Assembly: GCA_022824665.1 (NCBI GenBank)
Contig: JAJDZL010000159.1
Coordinates: forward strand, 1-46,105
Source of the DNA: Gammaproteobacteria bacterium
Lineage (GTDB): Bacteria; Pseudomonadota; Gammaproteobacteria; Arenicellales; JAJDZL01
Length of the DNA stretch: 46,105 bases
Direction: 5' to 3'
In this document: piece by piece, positions 11,062-42,356 of the stretch
Layout of the letters: every line of letters starts with the position of its first letter
How positions within the stretch are numbered: position 1 is the stretch's first letter
Made by a program: the position numbers and the translations under genes
Notes under the pieces: generated by a model
Seen by the model: the letters and a program-made list of their open reading frames with translations, nothing else
Database searches by the model: none
What the model was told of the DNA's origin: nothing

Positions 11062-11062
11062 A

Positions 11063-11284: not shown

Positions 11285-11287
11285 CGA

Positions 11288-12527: not shown

Positions 12528-13232
12528 CTACCCTGACACACGGAGCTGTACTTGTGTTCCTGACTCCGACTCAAAAACTGCCGAGCGGGCATCTGGATCG
12601 ACACGGATCAGTAGCCAGCCGGCACGCGACGCGTGCGGTTCGATCATAGCCATTTTGCCAGCAAGTTCTATGACTGCATTCCACTTGTTGTTCCAGCGGT
12701 CTATGGCAATCAAACGAAAAGGTGGCTGCCGTGTTTTCTGTACAGCATCTGCCTGCCTGCGTTCAGCAAGAGTCGCCGAGAGCTCGGCGAGCGTAATTTC
12801 CATGTTCTCAAATCGTTGTTCAATCAGGTTCACCACCGACCGCTGATGTGCGATGGATGATTCAAGCTTTGGCAGTAATTCGTGGAACGGTTGCAGCCGG
12901 TCATCGAAGTACAACAGTGCATCGTTTTGTTGTTTCAGGCCCAAACTGATTTGTTCCATTTGGGCAATTAACGCTGGATCGTTTGTCGCGACCGGTGAGG
13001 CAGGTTCCAAAGCGTCTGGCGCCATTGCAGCAACCGACTCAGGTACGAGTGAACCGGATGGTAATAATTGCGGTTCCGGCTGGAGTAATTCGGAATCTAC
13101 AAATTCTTCGATGGAAGTTGGAGCCACTTCGACTCGCGGTGTTTGCGCGTAAAAAAGCCATAGCGATCCAATGCCACTGCTAAGCGCTGCTGCAACCGCA
13201 ATAAGTAGTACCGGTTTACGGAGGAGTTTCAT
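12528..13232 (-). CDS. Single-TM protein in pilus cluster; C-terminal domain possibly PilP/TraP-like
   Basis: N-terminal TM, coiled-coil middle, C-terminal beta-rich module (WNNKWNAVIELAGKMAMIEPHASRAGWLLIRVDPDARSAVFESESGTQVQLRVSG). Confidence 0.55.
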   Translation of the reverse strand: MKLLRKPVLLIAVAAALSSGIGSLWLFYAQTPRVEVAPTSIEEFVDSELLQPEPQLLPSGSLVPESVAAMAPDALEPASPVATNDPALIAQMEQISLGLKQQNDALLYFDDRLQPFHELLPKLESSIAHQRSVVNLIEQRFENMEITLAELSATLAERRQADAVQKTRQPPFRLIAIDRWNNKWNAVIELAGKMAMIEPHASRAGWLLIRVDPDARSAVFESESGTQVQLRVSG

Positions 13233-13410
13233 CTATGCCTTACCAGTAAGGTCCGCTTTTGTCATTTTGTCGCCAGTAGCACACAACATCCTGACGATCT
13301 GAACAGGTGTTGGATTCATTTTTTCGTGAAACCAAAAAAAAATGCAAAAAAAACCGTAAATTCATCACAAGCAGTTTTTTGAGTGCCTCAAATATTGATT
13401 ATTTTCGCGC

Positions 13411-13872
13411 TCATTCAGCGACCATCAAATGAAGTTCTAAATGAACACAATTGACTATATGAATGACAAACGCGGTTAGCCCGAGACCAACGCCAAAAGG
13501 CTTTTCCAACCTGTGCGGGTAGCAGATCAGCATGATCAGCGCACCACCAACCAGTAAATGGGGAAGAAACTGAATTCCGAGCCAGGCACCAAGAGCACCC
13601 AGGTATTTGGCATCTCCATAGCCAATGCCTGAATATCCTCGGCAGCAAATTTGCATTTTCCGCAATGATTGAACACACAAATATCCGATTAGTGCGCCAA
13701 GCAAGGATGAATGGAAAGTGACGAAAATATCAAATAAGGCGATCAACAGCCCACCGATTGCGAGGGGGATGGTAATGCAGTCTGGCAGACGGTTATTCCG
13801 ATGATCTTCGGCAATGAGTAGCGCCACCGCCAGCGTGAACACCAAAAGCAGCAGTGCTTGCAAGACCATCAC
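13411..13872 (-). CDS. Type IV prepilin peptidase (A24 family), conjugative pilus
   Basis: DHRNNRLPDCIT and GIGYGDAKYLGALGAWLG (GXGD-type) motifs, multiple TM segments. Confidence 0.85.
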   Translation of the reverse strand: MMVLQALLLLVFTLAVALLIAEDHRNNRLPDCITIPLAIGGLLIALFDIFVTFHSSLLGALIGYLCVQSLRKMQICCRGYSGIGYGDAKYLGALGAWLGIQFLPHLLVGGALIMLICYPHRLEKPFGVGLGLTAFVIHIVNCVHLELHLMVAE

Positions 13873-14012
13873 CCAAACTCAATCTGCATCCAATTGCCAA
13901 TTTGTCAGCAACGGGCGCTCATCATTCGTTCTGTGCTTGAGAAAATTCAGGCAGTCAAGGGTCGGTTTGTGTCATTTTGAGAATTTGGCATTTGTTGTCA
14001 TTTGGTGATGCG

Positions 14013-14429
14013 CTATCGGCATTTATTCACACCATGTTCACAATAGCCGTCGCAATTTCCATTGCTCACAAAACAGCAATTCTGGTACAGCGTCACAGTA
14101 TGACTGTCGCACTTAAGGGTCGAAAGATTGCGCGTCTTGTAGCTAAATGTTTTTGAGTCATAGCTCCAACGACCGCAGAAATAACATGACCCTCCACAAC
14201 TTGTTTGGCCTGGATTTGCCCTCAGCACTTCAGCCCGTGAAGGCGTGCATGATTCAGGGATTGTAGGTTGACGAGAAATCGACCGAATATCTGACGTATT
14301 CTTCATAATTCTTACACGATTGTTAGCGATAGCAGTGACATTACTGTCTACTGTTCCTGTCACTCTAACCAAATCAGATGCGTTTTCTGATATATCGCCG
14401 CGTTGACTATGAAGCGCCCTTATATTGGT
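14013..14429 (-). other. In-frame open continuation of pilV after a TGA stop; Cys-rich C-terminal domain
   Basis: Same frame as 14430..15503; 138 sense codons from acc(14429) to the stop at 14013; 10 Cys in the last ~80 codons. Confidence 0.75.
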
Positions 14430-15452
14430 TCAGATATTTTGTTCATTGTCACGGACTCGTACAGTCAATTGTGTCACGTCATTATCGATCCGTATTACGT
14501 CAGGGGCTTGGTTAAGGCGTTCAAATCCTGCACCGGAAACTCCGTTTGGCACATCAACTTTAAGTTGATCAAACTCAGCCGATGAGACTTGCAGCGTGTT
14601 TGCGTCGATTCGTCCTGCTACTTTCAGGTCACCGGTGGTTGTTTGAACTTCTACATCGCCAGGGCCCTGTACGACAAGACCGGAGGCGTTCATGTTAACT
14701 TGCATGCCGTTTTGGAAATTCACTCCGCCCGTCATTTCATTACCGCCGTCCAGCCGCAGGAAAGGTGCATCGCCTGCTGCTAATGCGCCAATTCTTGCTT
14801 GCAGCCGGGCCAGGTCGTCAACTGCATCCTGATCGTAGTTCGGGTTGTTTACATTAACAATGACTACAGCCGGGTCCGGCTCAGCAAATTCCAATTGAAA
14901 GAACTCCAGCACGCCGGCACCGGTTTCTTCAGAAGCTGTCCGGAATGCCGCGGCGGCGAGGTCTGGCCGGGAATCAGGCAATCCGTCGCCGTTCGAGTCC
15001 GCACCGCTTCGGAAAACGCCGAAATCTATTGTACCGAGCGTGCCTGCAGAAGAGATTTGCACATCGATTTCGAGGTCGCCAAACGTTGTTGGTGTGTTCG
15101 AATTTAATTGGGCATAGGGAACAGTTGTTGCAGAACTGAAGCTGCACGGCAGAAATTGAACGCCAGCCGGATTGCTGCAATCCTGCAGGTTGGTAATGTT
15201 ATAGATTCCGTCCGTTGCAGGCGGACTCTCAGCGAGCCAGGTTGATGCGGCGCGGGCATATGCTGCAATTGCCCGCCCGGCATTGCGAGCGTTTTCGACT
15301 TCCAGTTGATTTAACCTCGTTTGTGCCCAAACAATCAGTATCGTGATCCCCACCGCGAGAACGATTAATGTCTCGACAAGGGTAATTGCACCTTTATCGC
15401 GAAGATCAGACCTGCGATCACAGCGTGTTTGTCGCCGATGAAATAGACGCAT
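14430..15452 (-). CDS. pilV: PilV-like minor pilin/adhesin shaft; ends at TGA that interrupts a longer frame
   Basis: Prepilin-like leader RDKGAITLVETLIVLAVGITILIVWAQ; beta-helix-like repeats; likely ATG at 15452, immediately after pilS stop. Confidence 0.78.
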   Translation of the reverse strand: MRLFHRRQTRCDRRSDLRDKGAITLVETLIVLAVGITILIVWAQTRLNQLEVENARNAGRAIAAYARAASTWLAESPPATDGIYNITNLQDCSNPAGVQFLPCSFSSATTVPYAQLNSNTPTTFGDLEIDVQISSAGTLGTIDFGVFRSGADSNGDGLPDSRPDLAAAAFRTASEETGAGVLEFFQLEFAEPDPAVVIVNVNNPNYDQDAVDDLARLQARIGALAAGDAPFLRLDGGNEMTGGVNFQNGMQVNMNASGLVVQGPGDVEVQTTTGDLKVAGRIDANTLQVSSAEFDQLKVDVPNGVSGAGFERLNQAPDVIRIDNDVTQLTVRVRDNEQNI

Positions 15453-15454
15453 GA

Positions 15455-16051
15455 CTAACCGCGAAATGTCCACGTGACATCGTTCGGCGGATTGTCTGCA
15501 CATAGCGTGGCGATATCCGCAGCGGCTGATTCGTCAGGACCGGTATTGGGATCATCCTGCGCAGTGATGTCAAGCGTTTTGCCGCCGATTTCGACTGATT
15601 CTGACATCTCCGCGGTCGTTGCGACCAGTGATGTGCAGGCCGCCTGTGGCATTTGCGAAAATTCGATTGTAAAGGATTGGCCAGCTCCATTGATCTCGAC
15701 ATCACCGCTCCAGGGATGTTGAGGTGAGGTTTGTCCTTGAATTAGAAAATGCTGCGGGAATCCCGCCAGATTACGAGCGAGTGCTGTATTCAGCCCGCCG
15801 AAGTTATTGCGGACACCGAACGTCATACGTACACTGGATACAATTTGAGTCAGGCCGCTCATGCCGGTTGATGCGTTGCGAGCCGCTACGAGTGCGGGAA
15901 TTCCCGCAAATACCACAGCCAGAACCGTTGCGCCGACTCCTAGTGCAATCAGTGTTTCAGCCACAGTAATTGCTCCTTTTTCTCTGTCGGAGGGGGATTT
16001 CCTTCGCCAGGCTCTATTGAGTAATTTAATCAGTAATTGAACAAATTTCAT
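15455..16051 (-). CDS. pilS: PilS-like type IV major prepilin
   Basis: MKFVQLLIKLLNRAWRRKSPSDREKGAITVAETLIALGVGATVLAVVFAGI prepilin leader and TM. Confidence 0.82.
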   Translation of the reverse strand: MKFVQLLIKLLNRAWRRKSPSDREKGAITVAETLIALGVGATVLAVVFAGIPALVAARNASTGMSGLTQIVSSVRMTFGVRNNFGGLNTALARNLAGFPQHFLIQGQTSPQHPWSGDVEINGAGQSFTIEFSQMPQAACTSLVATTAEMSESVEIGGKTLDITAQDDPNTGPDESAAADIATLCADNPPNDVTWTFRG

Positions 16052-16076
16052 GGTTTGACTCCTTGAATAAGTGTGG

Positions 16077-17120
16077 TTAAAAACTAGAGTTCTGGACGGT
16101 GAACACGACGCGTGCAATACCGATGTAAATCCACACAGCAATACCGCCAATGATCAGCAGTAGAACTGAGGATAGCGTCTTGGTCGCTCTGTTGAGTTTC
16201 TCAAGTGCGCGTTCCAGATCCTCATCAGCGATTCGCTCTGCATGAGACGTAAAGTCGCCCACGCGCTCATAGATTCGCAAAGTATCGAGTGTTTCTGCTG
16301 AAAACAGCCCGGTGTCGAGTGCCATATCAACACCATCGCCACGATAAAGGTTTGAACGCATGCTCCGTACGTGGTATGCCAGGTAGCTTGGCAGACCGCT
16401 TTCCAGCAGTCGAAGCGCCTTGATCCGTTGGACACCAGCTTGCATTAGCGCCAACAGGGCACACAGAACTTCAGGCCCCGAAAACCGTCTGTATAGAACA
16501 AACGGCGGATACCAGTCCAGTCTTTGACGAATTGGTCCCGACCAGCGCGGCGCAGCCCATATTGAAAGTGCGACTACAGCAAAAAATATGACACTGAGAG
16601 TGATGCCCCAGGTCGACAGGAATTCCGAAAATGCCAAAACACTGAGGGATACCTGTGGCCATCTGGATTTATCCAGGATATTGGTCATCACGGACAGTGC
16701 ATATCCTGGTACCAGTGCTACGACAAAACCACCGCCGAACAGCAGAATCATTGGGTAGGTTAAACCGGCGATTAGCGTCGACCTTAACTTGGATCTGACC
16801 ATCGCCATACGTGCCGCCTGTTCAAAGCCTTCTGCGATCCTGCCTTCCTGCGTGATTTGAAGAATTGCCAACTCTTCCTTTGGTGCCCAACCGGCCGCCC
16901 CGGTCGCAAACCCCTGTGACCGAATCGCCTTTCGTTGATGCGTAACGAAGTGTGAGCAAACCGATTCTTCCGCTTTACTCTCCCATATAAACTCGAGTGC
17001 GGCAGCAATGGGAATATCTGAATGGCTAAGTGATGCTAACCGTTGCCACAAACGAGCGCGTTTGGACGCTGCGATGCGAAATCGAAAACGGTGCAGCAGT
17101 TCGAACGCGTCTTTAAGCAT
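16077..17120 (-). CDS. pilR: PilR-like type II/IV secretion F-domain inner membrane protein
   Basis: MLKDAFELLHRFRF start internal to ORF; LASLSHSDIPIAAALEF, ALLALMQAGVQRIKALR, TM segments. Confidence 0.82.
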   Translation of the reverse strand: MLKDAFELLHRFRFRIAASKRARLWQRLASLSHSDIPIAAALEFIWESKAEESVCSHFVTHQRKAIRSQGFATGAAGWAPKEELAILQITQEGRIAEGFEQAARMAMVRSKLRSTLIAGLTYPMILLFGGGFVVALVPGYALSVMTNILDKSRWPQVSLSVLAFSEFLSTWGITLSVIFFAVVALSIWAAPRWSGPIRQRLDWYPPFVLYRRFSGPEVLCALLALMQAGVQRIKALRLLESGLPSYLAYHVRSMRSNLYRGDGVDMALDTGLFSAETLDTLRIYERVGDFTSHAERIADEDLERALEKLNRATKTLSSVLLLIIGGIAVWIYIGIARVVFTVQNSSF

Positions 17121-18762
17121 CGCTGGCGAAGATTTGTGTGTTTTCTTGGGCCATGAAATGATTTCCTGATGAGATGTGAGGGATCGACTGGTTACGACTT
17201 GCTGCTTCCATTGGCAAAGCACCGATTTGCCACTCTACATCGGACGGAGAAACCAAGCCCTTGGCAATCAGTTCAAGCCCATGCTCGTGTACCGGAGTAC
17301 CGTTGAGATTGTCCAGCCAATGGCGCCGGGCATTACTGTAATCGGCTTTACTTAGCCTGAATAACATCTCATCATCAGGCAGTACGATTTCGGCCATGAC
17401 TGTTCGTCCAATGACGCCACTGCCGCCACATCTTTCACATTGGCTATTGCCTCTGTAGAACACGCGATCGGTATCGAAGCCACTAGCTTTCAAGGCACTT
17501 TTTGTTCGATTGACGCTATCCCTGCGCCGGTCATCAGTACTTCGGCCAATTGCGCTCCAAGTATCCGCATCAACCCTGCACTCAAAGCACAGCTTTGGTA
17601 CGAGGGACTGATACATCAGCCCTTTTAGTACATCTGGCGTGCAAAGCAGATTGGCGTTAATGCCTAGTCCTGTAAGCCGTCCGACAATACCCAGGGCAGT
17701 AGAAGCATGTACTGTGGTGTAGACTCGATGCCCCGATTGAGCAAATTTAACCGTCAACAGTCCGGATTGAAGGTCGCGGATTTCACCGACCATCAGGGTA
17801 TCGGGATCGCATCTAAGGGCACCACGAATCGCAAAAGAAAAATCATCAGCACTGGAAGAACCTTTCTTTCGTACGACTGGAACTTGCGTGGCACCTGGAA
17901 TCACCCGTTCCGGAGGATCTTCTACGGTAATTATTCTGAGTCGAGACTGATGCATATCGAGCTCTTCGTTCAGCATTCCGACGATCGAGGTGCTCTTACC
18001 GCTGCCAACGCCGCCGGCCATGACTAACAGTCCCGACGGACGCCGTACCACAGCTTGAATTGCTTCAATTTGTTTGGCGGTGTAGCCCAATTCCTCAAGT
18101 CGCATAGTGTCCGCGCTGGCTGGCAAAACTCGCAGCACCATGTCGTAACCATCCGGAGACGCAGGAATCGTTCCGACCCTTACTCGAACGCGACGGCCGT
18201 TGGCCAGCACCGTGTCTGCTACTGCGTCCTGAGGTTCGTGTCGGTTCCACGTTACGGCTTGATCATGCCCCATCACTTCGTAGATGAATCTGCAGGTCTG
18301 GTCAGCAGCCTGTTCTGGCCATTCAGCGTATTGGGAAATTTGTCCATTGACCCGAAAACTGATTGAAGCGGTCATTCTGCGTCGCACGATATGTATGTCG
18401 GATGCATTCAGTGCAACTGCTTTTGCAAGCAGCATGCGCACCGTGTCCTGTCCTCTTTCAAAGTCAAGGTCTGTCGAATTTTGACTCGTCAGATTTTCGG
18501 CATCTGCATAGACGTTTTCCAATACAACTGGTGAAACTTCAATCTGATCAATAATCTGCACATTGCGTCGTTTCAGATTTTCGCGCAGTTGGGCTTTAAG
18601 TCTTGCTGGGTACTGCAAAGTTGTAAACAGGATGTATGCAGCCGTTGGAGGTTCATCTTCAGATACTGCTGCAAAGTACATTCTTTCGGTGCGCTCAATT
18701 GGCACCCATGCCCCTGGGCCGCCTGTGAGGACGAGTTTGTAAGCCGGCAGACGGTCGTTCAT
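17113..18762 (-). CDS. pilQ: PilQ-like type II/IV secretion ATPase (GspE/VirB11 superfamily)
   Basis: Walker A MAGGVGSGKSTSIVG, Asp box ITVEDPPE, Walker B PDTLMVGEIRD. Confidence 0.88.
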   Translation of the reverse strand: MNDRLPAYKLVLTGGPGAWVPIERTERMYFAAVSEDEPPTAAYILFTTLQYPARLKAQLRENLKRRNVQIIDQIEVSPVVLENVYADAENLTSQNSTDLDFERGQDTVRMLLAKAVALNASDIHIVRRRMTASISFRVNGQISQYAEWPEQAADQTCRFIYEVMGHDQAVTWNRHEPQDAVADTVLANGRRVRVRVGTIPASPDGYDMVLRVLPASADTMRLEELGYTAKQIEAIQAVVRRPSGLLVMAGGVGSGKSTSIVGMLNEELDMHQSRLRIITVEDPPERVIPGATQVPVVRKKGSSSADDFSFAIRGALRCDPDTLMVGEIRDLQSGLLTVKFAQSGHRVYTTVHASTALGIVGRLTGLGINANLLCTPDVLKGLMYQSLVPKLCFECRVDADTWSAIGRSTDDRRRDSVNRTKSALKASGFDTDRVFYRGNSQCERCGGSGVIGRTVMAEIVLPDDEMLFRLSKADYSNARRHWLDNLNGTPVHEHGLELIAKGLVSPSDVEWQIGALPMEAASRNQSIPHISSGNHFMAQENTQIFASDA

Positions 18763-19295
18763 TGCATTGCATTCTCTTCAATTTCAGGGTGTTGAAAACG
18801 GCCCGATAGTCCAATCGCAATGTCATGACCTGACACATGCAGAAGTACACCCCGGGCATGGACTTCGGCGACCTTCGCCAATCGAATCGTGTCGCCGGCC
18901 TGTAATCGATATTCCCGTCCATCAAGATATGCATATGCAGTCAGCGATTCCGGGGAGCCGACAATGGCATAAACCTCAAGGTTCTGATCGAACCAATTCA
19001 CGCGGTCCATGCCAGGTTCGGAATTAACCGGATTGTGTTGGACGGGCTCTGGGGGTGGCGGAGTGCTGTGTTGTGTTTGAATCTCAGTGATTTGTGTCGC
19101 CAATTGCTCGTATTCGAGGATGCGTCGCAATACGTCCTGCTGATTTTGTAAACAGTCAAGCAATGCGACAGTCCCTGAACTGTCGTCGCAAACGGGCGGA
19201 ATGTCCGGCGTTTGTTGCGCGCTGGCAGGCAGCGAAAACACCACGCCCAGATAGATGAAAAGTTTAATCAAGGCTTGCAAAATACTCTCCTTCAA
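18759..19295 (-). CDS. pilP: PilP-like pilus assembly protein
   Basis: Signal peptide, coiled coil, C-terminal VYAIVGSPESLTAYAYLDGREYRLQAGDTI; position between pilO and pilQ. Confidence 0.75.
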   Translation of the reverse strand: MKESILQALIKLFIYLGVVFSLPASAQQTPDIPPVCDDSSGTVALLDCLQNQQDVLRRILEYEQLATQITEIQTQHSTPPPPEPVQHNPVNSEPGMDRVNWFDQNLEVYAIVGSPESLTAYAYLDGREYRLQAGDTIRLAKVAEVHARGVLLHVSGHDIAIGLSGRFQHPEIEENAMQ

Positions 19296-20487
19296 GTTCC
19301 CAGCTGAATGTGTTACCCAAAGTGATTTTGATGCGAGTTACGTGCACTGGCTGCTCTTGTAAACCAATTGCCGCAGCAATGATTTCGTTGAGTCGATCGC
19401 TGGTTGCGCTTAAGTGCGAGCGCGAAGTTCGGTATTTTTTTCCGATTGATTGGGCGGGCTTCAAGACCCAGTCTCCGGGTAATGAAGCCAATTCATCCAA
19501 CAGCTGTACTCGTCTTGCCTGAGTGCCCAAACGTTTTTCAAAATTCTCGGGATCAGAATGTTCAGACGCCGGAAATGGGATTGTTTCGGTCAGGGTGTCA
19601 GAACGTTCTGTGAATTCAATTGTTTGTGTATTCAAGTGTTCCGTGATATCTGCAATGTTGCCATGCTGTCGGTGCCAGATTACCGATATTTGATCGTTTT
19701 CCCACTCATATGACTGCGCTTGCCAGCCTGCTGCCCGGAAAGGCCGATCATAAACTTTGTCAGCAAATGTTGCCAGTAGCGCAGCAGCATTTTGTTTCAG
19801 AGATTCTTGTATGTTGTGCTTTTCGCGTTGAAAATCTTGTTGTGCATCAAGCTCCTGCGTTTGCTTACTTGTGTCTTGGCCGAGCAGATGATCAGCAAAC
19901 TGCCATGTACCAATCAGGCTGCTGAGTACCACCAGCGCGGCAATTGCAGCCACGTAAGATTTGTTTAATTTCGAAAATTGAACGGGTTTTATCTCAATAT
20001 TGCTATTCGAGCTGGCGTCACCAATCAAATCAGCAAAATTCAATGCCATCGCATTCTCAATCTCAAAGGTTCCCGATTTTTCATAGATTGGAATACTGGT
20101 TCCTGCAATGTCAGAGGATATTTCCTTGAGCCGTGCTTCGATCAGGTCTTTAGAGCCGACTAAATCGCCCGCGGGAAATACTGCACCATCTTCGATCGCG
20201 CATAGCCAGTACCTGTCGTTTTCAAGGTGTTCAATGAGAACTGCTGACTGCTGGACTTGTACCAGCAAAGCGGCTGCGCTTTCCAACCCCAGGTCTTCGG
20301 GTTTAGAGCTCGCGCCGATTTGGCAGCCGCTTGGCGTTTCGAGTTCCACGTAACCGGCCGGACCAATCTTGAGCTCCATCAATTCACGGGTGATTCGTCG
20401 CTCGCGTCCTGCTGCTGGCCACTGAACCGGATCGAGCCAAGTAAGCTCAATGACCATCTCCTTATCACAAAATCGATGAATTGTCAT
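19264..20487 (-). CDS. pilO2: PilO2-like pilus assembly protein
   Basis: N-terminal domain WLDPVQWPAAGRERRITRELMELKIGPAGYVEL, mid TM AAIAALVVLSSLIGTW; position between pilN and pilP. Confidence 0.75.
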   Translation of the reverse strand: MTIHRFCDKEMVIELTWLDPVQWPAAGRERRITRELMELKIGPAGYVELETPSGCQIGASSKPEDLGLESAAALLVQVQQSAVLIEHLENDRYWLCAIEDGAVFPAGDLVGSKDLIEARLKEISSDIAGTSIPIYEKSGTFEIENAMALNFADLIGDASSNSNIEIKPVQFSKLNKSYVAAIAALVVLSSLIGTWQFADHLLGQDTSKQTQELDAQQDFQREKHNIQESLKQNAAALLATFADKVYDRPFRAAGWQAQSYEWENDQISVIWHRQHGNIADITEHLNTQTIEFTERSDTLTETIPFPASEHSDPENFEKRLGTQARRVQLLDELASLPGDWVLKPAQSIGKKYRTSRSHLSATSDRLNEIIAAAIGLQEQPVHVTRIKITLGNTFSWELEGEYFASLD

Positions 20488-22036
20488 TTTGAGGACTCCA
20501 CTGCTGTTGTCCGGAATATTCAAGTGCCGGACGAATGATGTACGGGGTGATGAGAAGCACCAGACTCGTGTGGTCGAGTTCTGCTGCAGAATTCTTTCTC
20601 AGGATTGATTTGGATTTAGTATCGTCGGTTCGAAAAGTATCAAGACCGGCGACGAACAACAATTCTCCCGAATTCAGGACGACTGGCAGCAGGATGGAGC
20701 GGGACTCCAAATTGGGCAGTTGAATAACAGGATCGTTGGGCCCTGCGTTTACAGGAAAGCGACTGATTTCCTTGATGCGTGTCGTCCGTACCGTCAGATT
20801 GAGCATCATTCTGTTGCTGTCAGGCAGGATTCTCGGCACCATATTGATTGCGATACCGTCTTGAACTTTACCGGGTACGAGGCGCACCGAGGTCGATCCC
20901 TCTGAGTTAACGACATCGCGCCGTTGCAGATATGAGGTTTCATCGCCAAAGAAAACCGGCACCGGCAGTCCATTCAATCCTCGAATCACCGTAGAGGTGA
21001 GTTTTGCCACTCGTTCGACGCCCTCCGACTTACGTAAAATCAACTCAATGTCGCTCGTGTCAGTCGTACCGCTGGGGTTGTGACTCAATTGAATTCCAAC
21101 AAATCCGCCAGCATCGTCGTCGTCGAACTGTACCGCTGCAGCACTCTTACCGAAGGCGTTCTGGATAATGCCTGCTAAATTGAATCCTGCAGATGCATCT
21201 TCTTTTCGATAGATCTCATAAAGGTCGAAATTCACGATCACCTGCGTCGTCAAATCCTGATTTTTGATTGCTACCCAATCAGCGATACGTCGCAGTGCGA
21301 CCGGCGTGTCAATAACAGTCAGTTCACCGGAATGCCGATTGATGTCTGCCTTACCGAACTCGGTCAGCAAGCTACTGACTGCTGCTTCAATTTCGTCCCA
21401 GAATATTGAAGTGTCTAAAGACAGTACCACTTGATCATGGGCCTGTAAGTCCGAACCACCAGAGCCACCCTGTATGGAACCAGACAGACCAACTGATGCC
21501 TGCCATTGTGCTTCGATTCCTGGAGCAAACAGAGTCCACATCCCAAGTTCGGTATGAAACACTTCAATCCCGTCTCGCCTGGTGCGCCAGCTATACCCCA
21601 GTCGACTGGTAATGTGATCAAGTGCATCTGCAGCTGGACCACTCCAGTTGATATTCGGCAACTCGGCAGTTTCAATGTCTGCTGAAACCAGTATCGGTAC
21701 CTCTATTGTGTCGGCAATTTGTCGGCTTAGCTCGACCAGAGAAGTAGATTCAACGAAATTGAGTTCAATGTGCCGGGTTAGAGATTCTGGTCGAGAGCTG
21801 GGTGAATTTACAACCTCGACCGGTGTATGAGGTCCAAGCCATACATCAGTGAAGCTCTGTACAACTGGCGGTGTGGAAGTGCTGAGTTCGGGCTGATCCG
21901 TCTGTGCTATCGTTTCCTCAACCCTGGTGACAAATTGCTCGCTCCGTTCAGTAATTCCGGACGGTAAGCGACAAGCCGGAGTCAGCGTTATTGAGCATAG
22001 AATCAGTAAAGTGGCGGCCAATTTGTCAATTCTCAT
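20465..22036 (-). CDS. pilN: PilN-like lipoprotein secretin
   Basis: Lipobox LTPAC; secretin-domain sequence VAKLTSTVIRGLNGLPVPVFFGDETSYLQRRDV... NSGELLFVAGLDTFRTDD ... TSLVLLITPYII. Confidence 0.85.
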   Translation of the reverse strand: MRIDKLAATLLILCSITLTPACRLPSGITERSEQFVTRVEETIAQTDQPELSTSTPPVVQSFTDVWLGPHTPVEVVNSPSSRPESLTRHIELNFVESTSLVELSRQIADTIEVPILVSADIETAELPNINWSGPAADALDHITSRLGYSWRTRRDGIEVFHTELGMWTLFAPGIEAQWQASVGLSGSIQGGSGGSDLQAHDQVVLSLDTSIFWDEIEAAVSSLLTEFGKADINRHSGELTVIDTPVALRRIADWVAIKNQDLTTQVIVNFDLYEIYRKEDASAGFNLAGIIQNAFGKSAAAVQFDDDDAGGFVGIQLSHNPSGTTDTSDIELILRKSEGVERVAKLTSTVIRGLNGLPVPVFFGDETSYLQRRDVVNSEGSTSVRLVPGKVQDGIAINMVPRILPDSNRMMLNLTVRTTRIKEISRFPVNAGPNDPVIQLPNLESRSILLPVVLNSGELLFVAGLDTFRTDDTKSKSILRKNSAAELDHTSLVLLITPYIIRPALEYSGQQQWSPQNDNSSIL

Positions 22037-22809
22037 TGGATTGCCTTGTGTCGCGTAAATCCCGCCTCAATTACCAGTACGGAATTGCCGTGATAGAAAC
22101 TTCCAGTTAATGGAACAGGGGCGTTCCGATAATGCGTCAAGACCGATTCGACAGCTTCTTCAAAAGTTCCGGGAAATTTTGCCGAGTGCCCGATTGCGTA
22201 ATCGTGCTGGCTGCGCCATTCCAATGACCAATCGACCGACTGTGCCCAGATCTCGAGGTTTTCTCTAAGTGAGCGGGACGCATACAGCTCCCAGACCATA
22301 GATGTTGGGGCGAAAGGCGATGGTCTGGTGATTTCAGGATCCATGTTCCCGGACGACTCAGGATTGGCATCCGGCGGTTGAAATACCTCGTTTGCATCGA
22401 TGCCAGCGCGCTGAAACCAAAGGATGCGCTTCTTGTTATCCTCATACAAATGCCAGGGCTGCCCGACAATCGTGCGTATCGCACTGCGGACATCAAGCGG
22501 ACCAATTGACCGATGCGCGTTAGGTAGCGGCAGATCGAGCGTCGGTAGAATTTCCTGTGTTGCAATGTGCCGGTAACCAGAGCGATGCAAAACGTAATCG
22601 AGCGCCGTTCCGACCGTTTCAACATAGGCGGGAAATTGAGTATCGATGACGACTGAAAGCAGGTCAATCTGGGCAGGGCCGGCGCTAAGTGTTTGCAATG
22701 AGTATCGGTCGACACGTTGAAGTTCGCTACCGTATACAGACTGCTCCGTCAGTGCCAGAGCCGGTCCAATGAGTGCCAAAGCAGTAAATTTAAGACAAAA
22801 TGATTTCAT
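22033..22809 (-). CDS. pilL: PilL, PFGI-1 class (TIGR03748-like; TcpQ-type C-terminus)
   Basis: RVDRYSLQTLSAGPAQIDLLSVVIDTQFPAYVETVGTALDYVLHRSGYRH signature; likely ATG at 22809 (MKSFCLKFTALALIG). Confidence 0.85.
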   Translation of the reverse strand: MKSFCLKFTALALIGPALALTEQSVYGSELQRVDRYSLQTLSAGPAQIDLLSVVIDTQFPAYVETVGTALDYVLHRSGYRHIATQEILPTLDLPLPNAHRSIGPLDVRSAIRTIVGQPWHLYEDNKKRILWFQRAGIDANEVFQPPDANPESSGNMDPEITRPSPFAPTSMVWELYASRSLRENLEIWAQSVDWSLEWRSQHDYAIGHSAKFPGTFEEAVESVLTHYRNAPVPLTGSFYHGNSVLVIEAGFTRHKAIQ

Positions 22810-22919
22810 ACTGCGAACTATGCATCTTGTCTTGCGAATATGGAACAATAAATTGAATATCCGTTCGGATGCATTTTTTGTATCTTGCGTATAACAATCC
22901 TGGTGCTGCATGTGGCAGC

Positions 22920-23825
22920 TCAATTAGCCACTTTGTTCATCAGGTAATTTCTGGCTTTCCATGCCTGTGCACTCGATGTAAATATGGCCTTAGGGTCGTC
23001 TTCGAGCAGTTTGACCCAGCTTAGGACATAGGACTCATGTCGGGTTTCTCCGGCAATTCGATAGTCAGCACACAAAAATGCAGAGCCAATTTCTGCAACC
23101 AGTTCTTCAAACGCGTAGCCTGCCGACTTATATGGATGCGAATCTACAATCCCCGTTCGGTTTAGCCTGGTTTTGTGGCCGGTCCAATGGGTCAGCTCAT
23201 GCATTAGCGTGCTGTAATATCCACCAGTCGAGGTGAACGCAGCTTTTGGAGGCATGCAAATAACGTCAGAGGCCGGAAGATAGGAAGCCGCTCTTCCCGA
23301 GTGTCGAACTCTTGCTCCGGAGAATTTGATCAGATCATCAGCTTTACGGTTTGATTCCCAGTTGTGTTCAAGGTTGAAATCCGGATGCGGACCGTTGGCA
23401 ATCCTGTCAGGCAGACCGGAACACTGTTCAACGTTGAACACTGTAAATGCGCGGGCAATCTTGTAGGCATAGTCAGATTGGTTCTCGTCTTCTGTGTCCG
23501 GTTCTGCTTGGCGGTCGATCTTGATATTTTTGAATAACACGACTGTGGTTCCCTTTTCTCCTTTACGAATGCGAGCGCCTATTTTTGCGGCTTGCCGAAA
23601 TGTTAACCAGCGGTCCAATTCATAGCCGCGAGCAAACGCAGCTGCCCACAAAATGGTTATGTTGATTCCGGTATAGCGGCGCTCCGTGCCAGCATTAACG
23701 GGAAATCCCGGTGCAAGTGAGGAGTGGGACCATGGTTTTCGCCACGGCGGCGCACCGGTTTTTAGCGCATCAATGAAGTGTGCGGTGACTTGTGAAAATA
23801 CGTTGCTGGTGCTTTTGTTTGACAT
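22920..23825 (-). CDS. ArdC-like antirestriction protein (ssDNA-binding N-terminus + zincin-like metallopeptidase)
   Basis: ALKTGAPPWRKPWS, GINITILWAAAFARGY, IRKGEKGTTVVLFK, HExxH in STLMHELTHWTGHKTRLNR. Confidence 0.88.
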   Translation of the reverse strand: MSNKSTSNVFSQVTAHFIDALKTGAPPWRKPWSHSSLAPGFPVNAGTERRYTGINITILWAAAFARGYELDRWLTFRQAAKIGARIRKGEKGTTVVLFKNIKIDRQAEPDTEDENQSDYAYKIARAFTVFNVEQCSGLPDRIANGPHPDFNLEHNWESNRKADDLIKFSGARVRHSGRAASYLPASDVICMPPKAAFTSTGGYYSTLMHELTHWTGHKTRLNRTGIVDSHPYKSAGYAFEELVAEIGSAFLCADYRIAGETRHESYVLSWVKLLEDDPKAIFTSSAQAWKARNYLMNKVAN

Positions 23826-23993
23826 CGTTCCATTGGGTTGGTGAAAATGGAACGAAACTTATTCGAATCTGCTAGCCAAAGGTGCGATTAATGGGATTTC
23901 AAAGCAGGGTGAGTTTTTTTTTGTGAACGGACCAAGCGTTCTCGAATTTTTGCAGCACGAATGAATCGCATTAGAGCGAAAATTCGCGCGACG

Positions 23994-25292
23994 TCAAAGT
24001 TCAGCATTGTCGGCAGCGCGTTTTCTTGATTGCAGGTTCATTGCCTCCTCAAGTGTTCGGCGACGATATCGTTCCCTGGTATCTTCATAGACTTTTTTCT
24101 GTTTAGCTCTTTCGGATCGCTGGATGCAGATTTGCTCGGCATTTTCGATTTGAAACTTGCCATCCTCACGCAGCCCAATGCCATGGTTAGCCAGCCGCTT
24201 GCAGTAAGTGGTCATTAATGAAACAGGATTCCAAACAGGCGTACACTTGTCCTGTAAGCCAGCCCTGATGCGACCATCCAATTCATCAAGGAGCAGCTGA
24301 TGCCAACAGTCCCATGGGGCAGGCGGGGGTGGCAGTGTTGTTGGCAGCCGGAGCAAAATGAGTTCAATCAAATGTTTCTGGTTTTCCGAAATATCCTGTG
24401 GAAATACCAGCTGGCTGTCCAGGTCACCATTCATTGCGTTTGTGGTTTTTTTGTAGTTGTATTTTTTTACTACTTCCTTACTACTACTACGTACTACGGA
24501 GTCGCGTCGAACTGAACATGCGCGATCGTCATTTGCATCGTGGGCTGTTGCACCGTAGTTCACGTCGTGAACTACGGTCGATGCCGCGTGCTGAATATGG
24601 TCCGGTTGCCGGGGCTTTTGTTTCGACCCTTCAGTTTCGTTCAGGTTTGGATAGGTGCCAAAGAAGCCTGCTTCATCCTCTCCCTCAATGGATTGCCACG
24701 CTTCAGCGCGCCTTTCAAAAGGATGTCTGTATTCGAGCAGATTCTGATCTTTATTTATTTCGTGTCGAAATGATCCGATGATGATTTGCGCAATTTTTCG
24801 CACGTCGTTGCTTCTATGCTTTGTGCTTTCGTGCACATAGGTCATATAGTTGGCATCAAGCTCAAGCGTGTCTGAAATCGCCAGTGGTTCACCGTGAACC
24901 ATGTATATGTTTCCGACCCTGGTAAACTGCCCCGATGCATTGCGCTCCTGGTCTCGACACAACAGGGTAAGCCACCGGGTCATTCTCAATTTGGCGATCG
25001 AACTTGATACCGTTCCGCGAGAGATGCTTAACAGCGACTGAATTTCGTCATAGCTCGGAAACGACGTCAAAGACATATCGGGAGTACAACGGGATCGAAT
25101 TGCAAGCCAGACCAGTTTGTCGTAAGGATTCAGAACCGGATCAAAAATGAGCAGTCTGGGATGTGAGTCGTACCAGTTATCCGTGAAAATCATGCCTGTT
25201 GATGCGTTATCTGCGTGGCGAAAGTTTTTCGCAGCCGATAGAATTCTAGACAGATTTTGTTTTATGGAACTTACGTTGGGTTGATTATTCAT
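23994..25292 (-). CDS. STY4528-family ICE/pathogenicity-island replication protein (HTH)
   Basis: VLNPYDKLVWLAIRSRC...SFPSYDEIQSLLSISRGTVSSSIAKLRMTRWLTL (wHTH). Confidence 0.75.
   Translation of the reverse strand: MNNQPNVSSIKQNLSRILSAAKNFRHADNASTGMIFTDNWYDSHPRLLIFDPVLNPYDKLVWLAIRSRCTPDMSLTSFPSYDEIQSLLSISRGTVSSSIAKLRMTRWLTLLCRDQERNASGQFTRVGNIYMVHGEPLAISDTLELDANYMTYVHESTKHRSNDVRKIAQIIIGSFRHEINKDQNLLEYRHPFERRAEAWQSIEGEDEAGFFGTYPNLNETEGSKQKPRQPDHIQHAASTVVHDVNYGATAHDANDDRACSVRRDSVVRSSSKEVVKKYNYKKTTNAMNGDLDSQLVFPQDISENQKHLIELILLRLPTTLPPPPAPWDCWHQLLLDELDGRIRAGLQDKCTPVWNPVSLMTTYCKRLANHGIGLREDGKFQIENAEQICIQRSERAKQKKVYEDTRERYRRRTLEEAMNLQSRKRAADNAEL
24552..24578. repeat. 27-nt palindrome inside STY4528-like replication gene
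   Basis: ACCGTAGTTCACG-T-CGTGAACTACGGT, 13-bp perfect arms with 1-nt centre. Confidence 0.95.
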
Positions 25293-25397
25293 GAATCTCG
25301 CACCGGGTTATGGAAATCAAAAAGTGTTCAATCGCAGCGATAGAAACAAATCAAATTCGATGGAACTCAATGCGAGATCCATAGAAAACGATATCAA

Positions 25398-25979
25398 CTA
25401 AATTTTTCTCAGTCGCTTTAATGAGCCGTCATTTTCCCAGGTATGGATCAGGTTCCAGATTACCCGCAGGGAAATTTGACGCTCTGTTGCATTAAAGATT
25501 TGCAGAAACTCATCTGGTCCAAAACTGTTTGATCGTTTGAATAACGCTTCTACCTGACTCCAAATAAATTGTTGAACCTCCTTTGTCGGTTGTGGCGGCC
25601 GTCCCGTAGGCTGGCTCTGAAGTCCGAACTGGTTGCGTCGCAGGTTAAATTGCTTAGTGCCCATTCCAGTGATCGCTCGCATCAGTTGCAGTGGTGCATC
25701 ACAGGAGATTAACTCATCAACTTTGGCATCCCGGCTCTTTTCCCGCAGGACATAGTCAATCATTCGCCAATATATTTTTCGATTCAAGCGAATAGACAGG
25801 AAATGAGATCGAGTAGAAGCCAGGCGCAACTCGTCTGCTGAACTCAGAGTATTTAGTGCGCGAATTTCATTCGGGCCGAACCCCATTTCCTGAAGCGCAG
25901 TGAAGTCTTCTTCTTCCTGGCAGCGGTGAAAGTAAACAAATACTGCATTGATTAATTCAGTTTCTTTGGTGATTGTCAT
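25398..25979 (-). CDS. DUF2857-like ICE protein
   Basis: Position between parB and STY4528-like gene; LQEMGFGPNEIRALNTLSSADELRLASTRSHFLSIRLN. Confidence 0.7.
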   Translation of the reverse strand: MTITKETELINAVFVYFHRCQEEEDFTALQEMGFGPNEIRALNTLSSADELRLASTRSHFLSIRLNRKIYWRMIDYVLREKSRDAKVDELISCDAPLQLMRAITGMGTKQFNLRRNQFGLQSQPTGRPPQPTKEVQQFIWSQVEALFKRSNSFGPDEFLQIFNATERQISLRVIWNLIHTWENDGSLKRLRKI

Positions 25980-25980
25980 G

Positions 25981-27666
25981 TCAATTTCCTCTTTGTTTCG
26001 GCAAACGAAACAAGTTAATGTTGTTATTGTTTGCCAGTTGCTGAATACTTCGATAAGTGTCTGTCAAACTGTCCAAGTCTTGCCAACTGTCGTCGCTGAG
26101 TCGTCGGTGACAGAGGCTAACCAGTCCCAGGTGGGGAAAGGTACATTGCATTTTGCTTTTTGCGTGCAAAATAATCGTTTTTGGGTCGCCTGTTTTTATG
26201 TAGTTCAATAGGTCAGTGTTACCGATAACTTTTGCGGTAAACGGACGTGCGCATTTGATCGCCCATTGCAGGTCCGAATATTCCAGGAGCAGCCACCAAA
26301 GCGCATCCCGATGCGCAACTTCGGTTGTACTCGCTCGTTCTGTAGCAGGCGGGTAGTCGATGACCAGGTAGCCAACTCCCCAGTCTTCAGTTTCAGCAAT
26401 AATGCTTCGTTTGGTTTTGGGGTTTACAAAAAAACCGTGTCGTTTTGCAATCCGCGAGGCGATTCGATAAGCGTGTTTTCTTAGTTCTTCAAGCTCGCGA
26501 TTTAACGCGGTAATTTGAACAGACTGCTGTTTGCTGCGGCTTACCGGGTTTTTGTCCCTAGGAGCGCCATTTACGTCAGATATTGACGGTAAATTCACTC
26601 CGAGGGTGAGTGGGACGAAACTCTCCGATGCACCATTTTGGTGCATCGTGTATTCCTTTTTTGAAGTGTTCGCCGGGCGAACACTCACTTCATGCACCAT
26701 TTTGGTGCATTCGATTTTGAATTTTTGCCGTTTCTCTTCTTTTTCTATATTGTCTTTTACTTTTTCGAAAGTTTCGTTGAGCGGCTTCGAAGACAGGTTC
26801 AAATATCCGTTCAAACGTAGCGAAACGTCCTGCACGGAAGTCGCTTTGTGTTCGGATAATTTTGCTTCCACCGAGCGTCTGAAAAGCCAATAATTCCATT
26901 GTGGCGCTGAGTAGTCCTGTAAGCCTTTTATGAAAAGATTTTTTGCCTGTTCATTTGACAGTTCAAACTCTTTACAGGCCTTGATAAATGCTTTTTGTAG
27001 TTTGCGCAGCTTTTCCATTGAGCGACGCCCCATTGAGACGCAGGCATCCGTTGCAAGGAACGGTTCAACAGTTTCTGCCGCGAAGAGCATGACAGATAAC
27101 GTGCTCAAAGGAATGCTGTAGCCTCTTGCGACGAGAATGGAGTGAATCGCGCGAATCGATAAATTCTTATTTTCTTTCGATTCCAGGTGCAAGTGCTCAA
27201 TGGCACATTTGATGCCATAGGCCTTATCAATGAAACACAGAGACTTGCGCATCTCGTTCTCTAGCAAGTGTCCGATGATTGCATCAGATTCATATCCGGA
27301 CCACGGAACAAAAGAGCATTCGATGAATCGGAATCTGAAATCTCCGGTCTCGGCAAACAATTCGGTGATTGCCCGCAGGCGGGTATTGCCGCCTTTATAG
27401 ACAATGAACTTGACATGCCCCGGTCGTTGGGTGACCACGAGCGGTTGATTCAGTCCGCTTTGAGCAATGGATTCTTTGATTTTGCTGAAATTGGGGTTCT
27501 CCACTCGACGAGGGTTCTTTTCATAGGGTTGAATCTCCGAGATTGGCAGGCAAAGCAGGGTTCGTTCGGTAAGCGAGGGTCTGGTTGGTTTCAATTCCGT
27601 CGCACTGGCTTGCTGGCTTGCGGGCGGTGTTTGAGATTTTTGTTTGGGCGATTTACGTTTTGACAT
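25981..27666 (-). CDS. parB: ParB-like partition protein, PFGI-1 ICE class (TIGR03764-like)
   Basis: LPISEIQPYEKNPRRVENPNFSKIKESIAQSGLNQPLVVTQRPG..VYKGGNTRLRAI. Confidence 0.82.
   Translation of the reverse strand: MSKRKSPKQKSQTPPASQQASATELKPTRPSLTERTLLCLPISEIQPYEKNPRRVENPNFSKIKESIAQSGLNQPLVVTQRPGHVKFIVYKGGNTRLRAITELFAETGDFRFRFIECSFVPWSGYESDAIIGHLLENEMRKSLCFIDKAYGIKCAIEHLHLESKENKNLSIRAIHSILVARGYSIPLSTLSVMLFAAETVEPFLATDACVSMGRRSMEKLRKLQKAFIKACKEFELSNEQAKNLFIKGLQDYSAPQWNYWLFRRSVEAKLSEHKATSVQDVSLRLNGYLNLSSKPLNETFEKVKDNIEKEEKRQKFKIECTKMVHEVSVRPANTSKKEYTMHQNGASESFVPLTLGVNLPSISDVNGAPRDKNPVSRSKQQSVQITALNRELEELRKHAYRIASRIAKRHGFFVNPKTKRSIIAETEDWGVGYLVIDYPPATERASTTEVAHRDALWWLLLEYSDLQWAIKCARPFTAKVIGNTDLLNYIKTGDPKTIILHAKSKMQCTFPHLGLVSLCHRRLSDDSWQDLDSLTDTYRSIQQLANNNNINLFRLPKQRGN
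26628..26710. repeat. Composite triple-hairpin repeat, copy A, inside parB
   Basis: atgcaccattttggtgcat (26628-26646) / gtgttcgccgggcgaacac (26666-26684) / atgcaccattttggtgcat (26692-26710). Confidence 0.9.
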
Positions 27667-29812: not shown

Positions 29813-30112
29813 TCAATTTGGTTTGGTGTCATTATCAAAGACTTCAATTATTGAATTTGCATTTAGCACTTCGCCTATCCAAGTTTCCAACTGGCAAATC
29901 TGAGCTGATTCAATACGTTTCTCAAATGCTGGTGGCACATCGCCAAACCTTATAACCAGCAGGTATTGAAAAATTTCTCGAGTTCCATCTTCGAAACCTT
30001 TCTCGTGCCCTTCCGTACAACCCACCCTATGACCTTCATCATACCGTTCCTTTTTCCGGCCCTTAATCCACCGGTTTATGGACTTATGGTACTGTTTATA
30101 CATGTAATCCAA
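29813..30112 (-). CDS. Stand-alone Rpn C-terminal-domain ORF (fragment or RpnS-like small protein)
   Basis: MDYMYKQYHKSINRW...RFGDVPPAFEKRIESAQICQLETWIGEVLNANSIIEVFDND aligns by eye to the C-termini of both full-length Rpn ORFs. Confidence 0.65.
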   Translation of the reverse strand: MDYMYKQYHKSINRWIKGRKKERYDEGHRVGCTEGHEKGFEDGTREIFQYLLVIRFGDVPPAFEKRIESAQICQLETWIGEVLNANSIIEVFDNDTKPN

Positions 30113-30256
30113 TTTTCTGATCTCTACTAATCGAAAATAGCAGAAGCCTTGCTTGGCTTCATTGAGAAAATTCCTCGGACGGCTGTATTGGCATTTGGTG
30201 CTCTGCGAGTATTTCTATCATGCGCGAGTCAAAAAATGCACTCAAGTTGTCCAAAT

Positions 30257-30735
30257 TTAGTTGTTCAATACCTCTTCAAATTTGAAATAAGTCTCCACAA
30301 TCTCCACAGAGTTTGCCACGAAGACCCACTTGTACAAATGTTCAAATTGCTCAAAGTCAAAAGATTCAATACGCGAAATACATTCTGGCGATATAGAGCC
30401 AAATTTCTGCACCAGAAGGTTCTGTAAAATGCATCGAGTTGCTTTTTCAAAGCCTAGCGTATATCCGTCCGCACGACCTTGTCTCAAGCCTTTTATGAAA
30501 CCTGCCTCAATCAATGCCTGTTCCCAAGCCTCGTAAAACGTATCAAAGTTGTCCGATGACGGGTCATCCAGAAATGCCTTACGCGCTTCTTCCGCTAATT
30601 TTACAGATTGTTTGTACTTTTCGATGAATTGACTCATAAAAATTTTCAAACACCTGCTTTAGTTCCTGATTCTCCGGTTCACCCGACTGCCACCTTCTGG
30701 CTGTTCGCACGGTAGACCAGACCTTTTTGTGCGTG
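30257..30735 (-). pseudogene. Degenerate Rpn remnant (N-terminal nuclease domain missing, frameshift near 30648)
   Basis: ORF 30257..30649 has Rpn C-terminal domain; upstream bases in another frame encode VWSTVRTARRWQSGEPENQELKQVFENF, matching ALTAVQAARRWLSDAPEDRELKQAF of the intact copy. Confidence 0.7.
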
Positions 30736-30830: not shown

Positions 30831-30903
30831 ATGCACCAAAATGGTGCGTTTTGAAAGTTTTCGCCCGGCGAACAGAACTGCTCAATGCACCATTTTGGTG
30901 CAT
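30831..30903. repeat. Composite triple-hairpin repeat, copy B
   Basis: atgcaccaaaatggtgcg (30831-30848) / ttcgcccggcgaa (30860-30872) / atgcaccattttggtgcat (30885-30903). Confidence 0.9.
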
Positions 30904-30922: not shown

Positions 30923-31939
30923 TCAGGATGAGTTCGAATTTCCAGAATTCGGTCTATCGATAGCGCCTTTACCGTTGAATACTTCTTCCAAAGAATTCGC
31001 ACCAATGATCCGGTTGATCCATTGATCAAGCTGCTCAAATTGAGCTGAATCAATACGTTTCAATTTGGCGGCTGGCACAGTGCCAAACTTTTGCGCTAAC
31101 AGATTCTGCAGGGTGCGTCGAATTCCTTCTTCCAGACCTTCCTGCTTCGTGTTTGCTTCCCAACTGTTTATGGACTTTATGAACTGCTTACTCATGTAAT
31201 CCATCTCTATTTCCTCCATCTCTATTTCCTCCATAATTTTGGCAAATTGTGGAAAATTTGTGCTGACGTGAATAATAAAAAGATCAGTAAACGCCTGCTT
31301 TAGCTCCCGGTCCTCCGGTGCATCCGATAGCCATCTTCGCGCTGCCTGCACGGCTGTCAAGGCCTGAGTGACTGTGCGACTGTAGATTATACCGAGTAGC
31401 GCCAGGTATAGCGAGCGCTGTGCGGGCAGCTGCTCCACCACCCGCTGCCGTTCCTCGACCAGCTGATAGCCGATTGACGGCAGGTGCGCCTGTAATTCAG
31501 CATCGTCAAGCTGGTCAAACATCCGGTGCACATTGCGCGGCACGTTCCAGCGCCGTTCACCGTGATAGCACACTGTGGCAAGTACAGGCGGCAGGTGGTC
31601 TTTTGTACGAAACTTGCGCTCTTTGGTCACGGATTCGAGTAGCAGTGCGCTATACACCAGGATGCGTAGTGGCATATTGGGGTCTGGCCGGCTCTGGAAC
31701 TCGAACGGGAAACAGATCAGATCAGTTGAGTCTTTGAGTGTGCACAGCCACACGCTGTCGGTATAGCGCACTTTGAAGTCTTTGGAGATGAGCTCGGCGG
31801 GTGCGCGTTTGAGGGTTGCGAAGTCGAGTTGACTGATGAGGTGTGGGTGGTTGTGGAAGATTTCCCGAAGTGCGTCTTCAACGAACTTTCGGTAGGAGAA
31901 GAAGTCCTTGTACTTGGGGTCTTTTCGATCAACACTCAT
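30923..31939 (-). CDS. Rpn family recombination-promoting nuclease/putative transposase (YhgA-like)
   Basis: DPKYKDFFSYRKFVEDALREIF, FPFEFQSRPDPNMPLRILVYSALL (ExQ-type PD-(D/E)XK), PPVLATVCYHGERRWNVP. Confidence 0.88.
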   Translation of the reverse strand: MSVDRKDPKYKDFFSYRKFVEDALREIFHNHPHLISQLDFATLKRAPAELISKDFKVRYTDSVWLCTLKDSTDLICFPFEFQSRPDPNMPLRILVYSALLLESVTKERKFRTKDHLPPVLATVCYHGERRWNVPRNVHRMFDQLDDAELQAHLPSIGYQLVEERQRVVEQLPAQRSLYLALLGIIYSRTVTQALTAVQAARRWLSDAPEDRELKQAFTDLFIIHVSTNFPQFAKIMEEIEMEEIEMDYMSKQFIKSINSWEANTKQEGLEEGIRRTLQNLLAQKFGTVPAAKLKRIDSAQFEQLDQWINRIIGANSLEEVFNGKGAIDRPNSGNSNSS

Positions 31940-32279
31940 CAGGTCACCGGCTAATGGATCAGGCATAAATGACTTTGGCGGCTGTACCTTGACCTGGTCA
32001 ACACAATTGCCTGACGAGGACTTGATACAGCGGCCCAGGTTATGATGAGCTATGAAGAATTAACGGGCAACGATTAATTCATTTTCCAATAGCAACAGTT
32101 TTTTCGAGGTGAGAAAATGGACATTCCGACTGCCACGATAGCAGTCTGAATAGGTGATATGGGAAGCAAGCGGCACAAGAAATTCAATCGCGCCGTTGAA
32201 TGCGATGACAATGAAATCCAGCTCAGCTCAGGTCAGGGGTGTGCGGTGTGGAACGCATCTATAGTTGGTGGGTGAAAGA

Positions 32280-41028: not shown

Positions 41029-41242
41029 ATTCCATTCAAGGTGCGAATGCCTTGAACACAGTATGCTAAAAATAATTCCCTCCAACCAATATTCAATTAA
41101 TTTCACATTTTTTGTTCCCCGACATTCATCATGCCCTGAACCGAGGCAATTGCAGCTGACGCCCGCTGGTCTTAAGTGGCTCAAGGTGCGGCTGTCAACG
41201 CCGGTATTGCGTTTATTCAACTATTGGTTCGTAGGAGACCTG

Positions 41243-42220
41243 ATGGCTGTGCTCAACAAAGACCCCAAGTACAAGGAGTTTTTCTCCTACCGGAAATTCA
41301 CCGAGGACGCCCTTAAGGAAGTCTTCCGCGATCACCCTCAGTTCATCGATCAGCTTGATCTGTCAACATTGCAACAGGCACCAACCGAGCTGATCTCCAA
41401 GGACTTCAAAGTGCGCTATGCCGATACTGTGTGGCTTTGCAAACACAAGCACTCAAAGCAACACGTGTATTTCCCGCTGGAATTTCAGACCAATCCAGAC
41501 CGCCGTATGCCGGTGCGGATACTGGTCTACAGCGCACTGTTAATCGAAACTTTCGCCAAAAAAGCGGGTCGTGGACAAAAGGACCGCCTGCCACCAGTGT
41601 TGGCGACCGTCTTTTATCATGGCAACCGGCGTTGGCGTATACCGCTAAATTTCAAGTGCATGTTTGACAAGCGTATGTTCGACCCTTTAGGAAATGCTGA
41701 GCTTACGGAGCAGCTTGCATCAGTTGGCTATCAGCTCGTAGAGGAACAGACCCGGGTGGTGGATCCGTTGCCCAAGGAGCGTTCGCTGTATCTGGCAATG
41801 CTGGGTATAATTTTCTGCAGCACGCCTTTACAGGCGTGCGATGCCGTACAGGCGGTGGAGAGGTGGCTGTCGGATGAGCCGGAGGATCAGGAACTGAAGC
41901 AGACGTTTGATGATTTATTTAACAGTGTAATGGAAAAAGAGTTTTCGGAGGATGAGACGATGGGCTACATGACAAAGCAGTTTAGGAAATCTATCAGAAG
42001 ATGGAAAGAAAAAGAGAGAAAAGAAGCACGCATGGAAGGACACATGGAAGGACGCATGGAAGGGCTTAAGGATACTTTGCAGAAACAGCTGATGCAAAAG
42101 TTCGGGGACATTCCCGCAGCGGACAAGAAGCGCATTGAAGCGGCGCCATTTGAGCAGGTTGAAATATGGATCAATCGGATTATCGGTGCAGATTCTCTGG
42201 AGGAATTGTTCGGTAATTGA
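41243..42220 (+). CDS. Rpn family recombination-promoting nuclease/putative transposase (YhgA-like)
   Basis: MAVLNKDPKYKEFFSYRKFTEDALKEVF, FPLEFQTNPDRRMPVRILVYSALL, VLATVFYHGNRRWRIP; start internal to ORF 41063..42220. Confidence 0.87.
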   Translation: MAVLNKDPKYKEFFSYRKFTEDALKEVFRDHPQFIDQLDLSTLQQAPTELISKDFKVRYADTVWLCKHKHSKQHVYFPLEFQTNPDRRMPVRILVYSALLIETFAKKAGRGQKDRLPPVLATVFYHGNRRWRIPLNFKCMFDKRMFDPLGNAELTEQLASVGYQLVEEQTRVVDPLPKERSLYLAMLGIIFCSTPLQACDAVQAVERWLSDEPEDQELKQTFDDLFNSVMEKEFSEDETMGYMTKQFRKSIRRWKEKERKEARMEGHMEGRMEGLKDTLQKQLMQKFGDIPAADKKRIEAAPFEQVEIWINRIIGADSLEELFGN

Positions 42221-42285: not shown

Positions 42286-42356
42286 CGCACCAAAATGGTG
42301 CATGGCACATGACTGTTCGCCGGGCGAACACCTTCAAATGCACCATTTTGGTGCAT
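42286..42356. repeat. Composite triple-hairpin repeat, copy C
   Basis: cgcaccaaaatggtgcat / gttcgccgggcgaac (42315-42329) / atgcaccattttggtgcat (42338-42356). Confidence 0.9.

Follow-up and report, generated by a model that had tools for sequence, protein, structure and literature searches.

According to Zhong et al. (PMC10327210), translation from within rpn genes yields RpnS, a protein that binds RpnL and blocks it. In the window, by which we mean the whole 46,105-nucleotide stretch of DNA that was analysed, a C-terminal domain (CTD) of this type is encoded by a separate open reading frame (ORF A). This raises the question whether ORF A is an antitoxin of the adjacent intact Rpn or a pseudogene fragment, the two options given in the original prediction. 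We lean towards reading ORF A as a non-cognate relic that most likely does not serve the adjacent intact Rpn as antitoxin. The features concerned are the following:

29813..30112, minus strand: copy A (ORF A), stand-alone Rpn CTD, 99 aa from TTG 30112 or 96 aa from ATG 30103
30112..30126, minus strand: last few homologous codons ahead of the TTG (EIRK); the homology to full-length rpn stops approximately here
30923..31966, minus strand: copy C, intact full-length Rpn with PF04754 (E 7.8e-20) and CTD; D...E-x-Q nuclease motif readable
30923..31207, minus strand: predicted internal RpnS of copy C (GGAGG, 8 nt, ATG; MDYMSKQ), duplex -9.3 kcal/mol
41063..42220, plus strand: copy D, second intact full-length Rpn with PF04754; internal RpnS start with GGAGG and ATG (MGYMTKQ)

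ORF A is present with both start codons as described, and a chance open frame is ruled out by homology to other Rpn copies in the same genome (E 9e-19 to a copy on contig C252, 1.6e-16 to copy D and 4.6e-12 to copy C). The alignments to the CTDs of full-length Rpns span 83-94 columns, the whole length of ORF A, with the Met-containing segments lining up as had been noted, and the CTD is 49% identical to that of copy C and 43% to that of copy D. The match to PF14261 (DUF4351; residues 38-88, E 2.3e-4, 21.6 bits) is below the curated cut-off of 25, and the scores of the intact neighbouring Rpns are even lower, 19.3 and 17.8 bits. The domain is nearly complete, with a conserved core of W, KRIESA and ANS..EVF. 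Judged from its sequence, ORF A is an RpnS-type, DUF4351-like CTD.

Upstream of these starts the frame stays open as far as 30214, and this extension has no further ATG, GTG or TTG. Homology sets in some five codons ahead of the TTG (EIRKLDYM vs EIEMDYM) and no earlier. In 30113..30256 the similarity to the N-terminal part of Rpn did not exceed that of shuffles (p about 0.4-0.5), and the PF04754/PD-(D/E)XK N-terminal domain is absent from ORF A. By homology ORF A is therefore a clean CTD module, in agreement with the earlier view that only this domain is covered. Five four-residue repeats (DEGH RVGC TEGH EKGF EDGT) lie within the predicted long N-terminal helices. They start at about residue 25, slightly later than in the published RpnS, where the first helix carries its four-residue repeats at 8-20 residues from the start (PMC10327210). 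The AlphaFold2 model is helical (pLDDT 71), with a long helix and a bundle of higher pLDDT (83-85); as reference fold we used the dimeric three-helix bundle of RpnS (PDB 7TH0). Sequence and fold searches of the PDB with ORF A gave no significant match.

A further rpn copy lies in the interval between ORF A and copy C:

30257..30649, minus strand: copy B, CTD-containing ORF, 130 aa from TTG 30649 or ATG 30637; DUF4351 24.6 bits
30618..30771, minus strand: copy B remnant ahead of the CTD, in another frame (WSTVRTARRWQSGEPENQELKQVFENFYESI); tblastn E 3e-6 to 3e-8

The CTD of copy B is 37% identical to that of copy C, and the remnant ahead of it is 66-68% identical in DNA, above shuffles (p 0.005). 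From these matches copy B (30257..c.30771) is a 5'-truncated and frameshifted rpn, the C-terminal ORF of which is still open. The array thus runs from rpnL (copy C) through a broken rpn (copy B) to the lone CTD (ORF A). That ORF A lies beside an intact rpn holds in so far as copy C is upstream; the two are, however, 811 bp apart, and the remnant between them had been missed. The presence of a lone RpnS-type domain in an rpn locus is supported, with the stand-alone rpnES/ypaA, which is made as a protein, as precedent.

Copy B also bears on one of the alternatives, namely that ORF A arose recently by deletion from a third full-length rpn paralog and is a young pseudogene that lost its 250 N-terminal codons. 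Copy B shows such a truncation, and the divergence of ORF A from copies C and D (49% and 43%) is nearly that between the CTDs of C and D (58%; the full-length proteins are 57% identical). However, in ORF A as in ypaA the homology extends little beyond the internal start, and no N-terminal trace was found upstream, and we regard this origin as improbable.

Copies C, B and A fill a 2633-bp gap between the genes for HMG-CoA lyase and metZ. The same gap in a genome of the same genus (G005) is 398 bp and free of rpn, therefore the array was either gained here or lost there. No relative of ORF A was found in the five congeners examined, where rpn was present only in G005. With the full-length Rpn as query, no relative was found among GTDB genome contigs or in IMG/VR; among phage records there was no match, among plasmid records two weak ones. 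As the searches beyond its own genome yielded no usable relative, the conservation of ORF A could not be followed outside it. For methylcrotonyl-CoA carboxylase the best matches reach no more than 72% identity and are spread across the Proteobacteria.

A module resembling an integrative/conjugative element (4396..27666) adjoins metZ and encodes a TraC_F_IV ATPase, DUF2895, DUF2857, a ParB-like protein, an ArdC anti-restriction protein and pilus-like genes. T4SS genes are also part of this module, which ends beside the rpn locus. The metZ-parB adjacency is retained in G005 and in the congener G002. In one further reading, ORF A would be kept as a non-cognate RpnS that acts in trans, as immunity against Rpn nucleases of incoming elements (compare the adjoining module with its ArdC and T4SS genes) or as a donor cassette for CTD exchange. 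We consider this very improbable. If ORF A were a non-cognate antitoxin, it would provide cross-protection, contrary to the published one-repeat specificity.

A palindromic element is found 3' of copy C:

30832..30902, no strand assigned: triple-palindrome element, a TTCGCCGGGCGAA palindrome flanked by two palindromes of the TGCACCAWWWTGGTGCA type

In this element of about 75 bp, paired TGCACCAWWWTGGTGCA-type palindromes flank TGTTCGCCSGGCGAACA, and its single-strand fold has about -37 to -40 kcal/mol. The whole genome contains only four such triple sets (30832..30902, 42286..42355, 26629..26709 and C252:373..442). Three of the four are located directly 3' of rpn copies of this subfamily, one each for C, D and the C252 copy, and the fourth is in frame within the ParB-like ORF 25981..27666. 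The outer palindromes are similar to NtrC boxes. Beside the parB-metZ region of G002 there are two occurrences of a related central palindrome, TGTTCGCCGTGCGAACA (G002:C22:107527 and 107942; L193, L197), in a repeated 400-bp context. The element could be a 3' structure or a MITE-like repeat linked to rpn.

Stand-alone CTDs were also found elsewhere. In G005 a full-length rpn is followed after 195 bp by a stand-alone CTD (L017:2683..3093) with four extra repeats, which is 84% identical in aa to the CTD of its partner, repeat gap included. In G235 a full-length rpn is followed by two stand-alone CTDs (L156:4424..4870 and 4086..4427), the starts of which overlap the preceding stop by 4 nt (ATGA), and which are mostly 77-89% identical in aa to the CTD upstream. 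The whole G235 array (G235:C1:3793500-3803500) holds a full-length rpn and several lone CTDs with a varying number of GLQQ repeats, and some of its CTDs are fused to another N-terminus (ORFs of 456 and 288 aa). Contig C178 of the genome studied here has two tandem CTDs that are 96% identical in DNA. Of 369 genomes in the class, 30 contain DUF4351, with numerous short open frames among the occurrences.

We compared the initiation signals of these copies. At their internal starts, copies C and D and the copy on C252 all have GGAGG with ATG, the Shine-Dalgarno duplexes being -9.3 to -9.5 kcal/mol (C -9.3, D -9.5, both in the best 0.5% of random positions). The corresponding values are -8.7 kcal/mol for both rpnE and ypaA of E. 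coli and -8.3 for both the G005 rpn and its stand-alone copy. The strong Shine-Dalgarno with ATG is retained in the intact copies and in three of the younger stand-alone copies. ORF A has -2.9 kcal/mol at the TTG (32nd percentile of random positions) and -2.4 at the ATG, and no Shine-Dalgarno above random. The sites are weak, however, in most host genes checked and in several G235 stand-alone copies, and because most host genes checked share this weakness, the weak site of ORF A is not proof of silence. A scan for promoters and terminators gave signals no commoner than in shuffles.

ORF A has four repeats more than copy C and two more than copy D. In the published RpnC assay a difference of a single extra repeat abolished inhibition (PMC10327210). 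Such a mismatch is nevertheless common in stand-alone copies: that of G005 differs by four, and ypaA by our measurement has one repeat more than RpnE, with Shine-Dalgarno and ATG as in rpnE.

Lineage-unique differences by codon position are 35/22/42% in ORF A versus 12/13/53% in D/E (Fisher p 0.0056), the minimum in ORF A still being at position 2. The codon pattern of ORF A looks relaxed. In a branch codon model its omega was 0.38-0.45, and neither omega = 1 nor constraint was rejected (2 delta lnL 1.7-3.0). In simulations with the whole branch neutral, the frame stayed open in about 5% of cases when indels were left out and hardly ever when they were allowed; therefore, a loss of function in ORF A cannot be old. 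The open frame and the near-complete domain argue that decay, if any, would be recent.

These observations bear on the proposal that ORF A is a working stand-alone RpnS antitoxin, which would bind a full-length Rpn through the helix bundle, be it the neighbour C, the second Rpn D or an Rpn whose gene lies outside the assembly. E. coli makes a stand-alone rpnS (ypaA), an rpnL followed by one or two lone CTDs recurs in G005 and G235, in the latter with 4-nt ATGA overlaps, and the frame of ORF A is open and its predicted fold conserved. Furthermore, the assembly is 87% complete and the relative on C252 is interrupted by the contig end, so a full-length partner of ORF A is possibly missing from it. 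Against this, ORF A starts with TTG and has lost the initiation signal, its codon pattern is relaxed, it carries two to four repeats too many for C and D, and no full-length gene of this 87%-complete assembly has a CTD matching it (the best are 43-49% identical). We hold a working antitoxin to be unlikely. A role for the neighbouring Rpn, as had been suggested, is doubtful on the sequence evidence, given the 49% identity, the four-repeat mismatch, the lost initiation signal and the internal start that copy C has of its own. PADLOC gave no match for any of the four Rpn-type proteins.

By analogy with the orphan modules of polymorphic toxins, ORF A might instead be an orphan C-terminal cassette that was retained, or simply remained, as a recombination donor for swapping the variable CTD of full-length rpn. 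The module boundary is clean at the domain start, lone CTDs recur behind full-length rpn, and CTDs are highly variable (PMC10327210). Compared with C, D or the C252 copy, however, ORF A showed no gene-conversion tract (p 0.22-0.64 for the longest shared runs), and a donor could do without an open frame, whereas that of ORF A is open. There is little probability in this explanation.

The pseudogene-fragment alternative fits better than the antitoxin. According to the relic reading, an acquired rpn array would have grown by partial tandem duplication, and ORF A would be an old stand-alone copy of the RpnS-type CTD left in it. If restraint works here as published for E. coli, the separately translated CTD would restrain the full-length nuclease through its dimerising first helix, the length of which, given by the number of four-residue repeats, would have to match between the partners. 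The intact Rpn genes here appear to keep their own internal start for an RpnS partner, so the extra copy would not be needed and would be free to drift. The reading is based directly on the homology, the domain boundary, the broken copy B, a congener that lacks the array, the repeat mismatch and the lost initiation signal; duplication as the origin and the loss of function are what we infer. In its favour we counted the lost start signal, the repeat mismatch, the relaxed codons, the frameshifted copy B, the absence of the array in G005, the congeners without the ORF and the closeness of younger lone copies to their partners (ypaA 75% aa, G005 84% aa, C178 96% DNA). Counted against it were the open frame, the conserved core, the predicted fold, the omega of 0.38-0.45, the weak Shine-Dalgarno sites of the host and the common repeat mismatch.

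The examples assembled in this analysis (the window, G005, G235, C178 and E. coli) indicate that rpn arrays repeatedly shed CTD copies, often with a changed repeat number, which bears on the diversification and decay of Rpn toxin-antitoxin specificity.

A lone CTD gene downstream of rpn is an already known layout, to which ORF A adds one more case. Separate RpnS genes have been published as ypaA downstream of rpnE, the protein of which (rpnES) is reported as made in E. coli, and as a second rpnCS downstream of rpnC (PMC10327210). The same paper gives tandem duplication as the origin of rpn arrays. Like ORF A, ypaA is a lone CTD that follows a full-length rpn on the same strand, with homology from the internal start and a repeat number unlike that of its partner. 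It is, however, 75% identical to the CTD of RpnE, whereas ORF A is 49% identical to copy C; it lies 12 bp from rpnE, whereas 811 bp and a broken copy separate ORF A from copy C; and it keeps an ATG and a Shine-Dalgarno of -8.7 kcal/mol, whereas ORF A has a TTG and none. With the intragenic RpnS of RpnL/RpnS toxin-antitoxin systems ORF A shares the Met segment, the repeat-bearing first helix and, as predicted, the C-terminal bundle, but it is located outside any full-length gene and is without a strong initiation signal. The lone CTDs of G005 and G235 have the same layout as ORF A, but these are young copies, much closer to their upstream partners.
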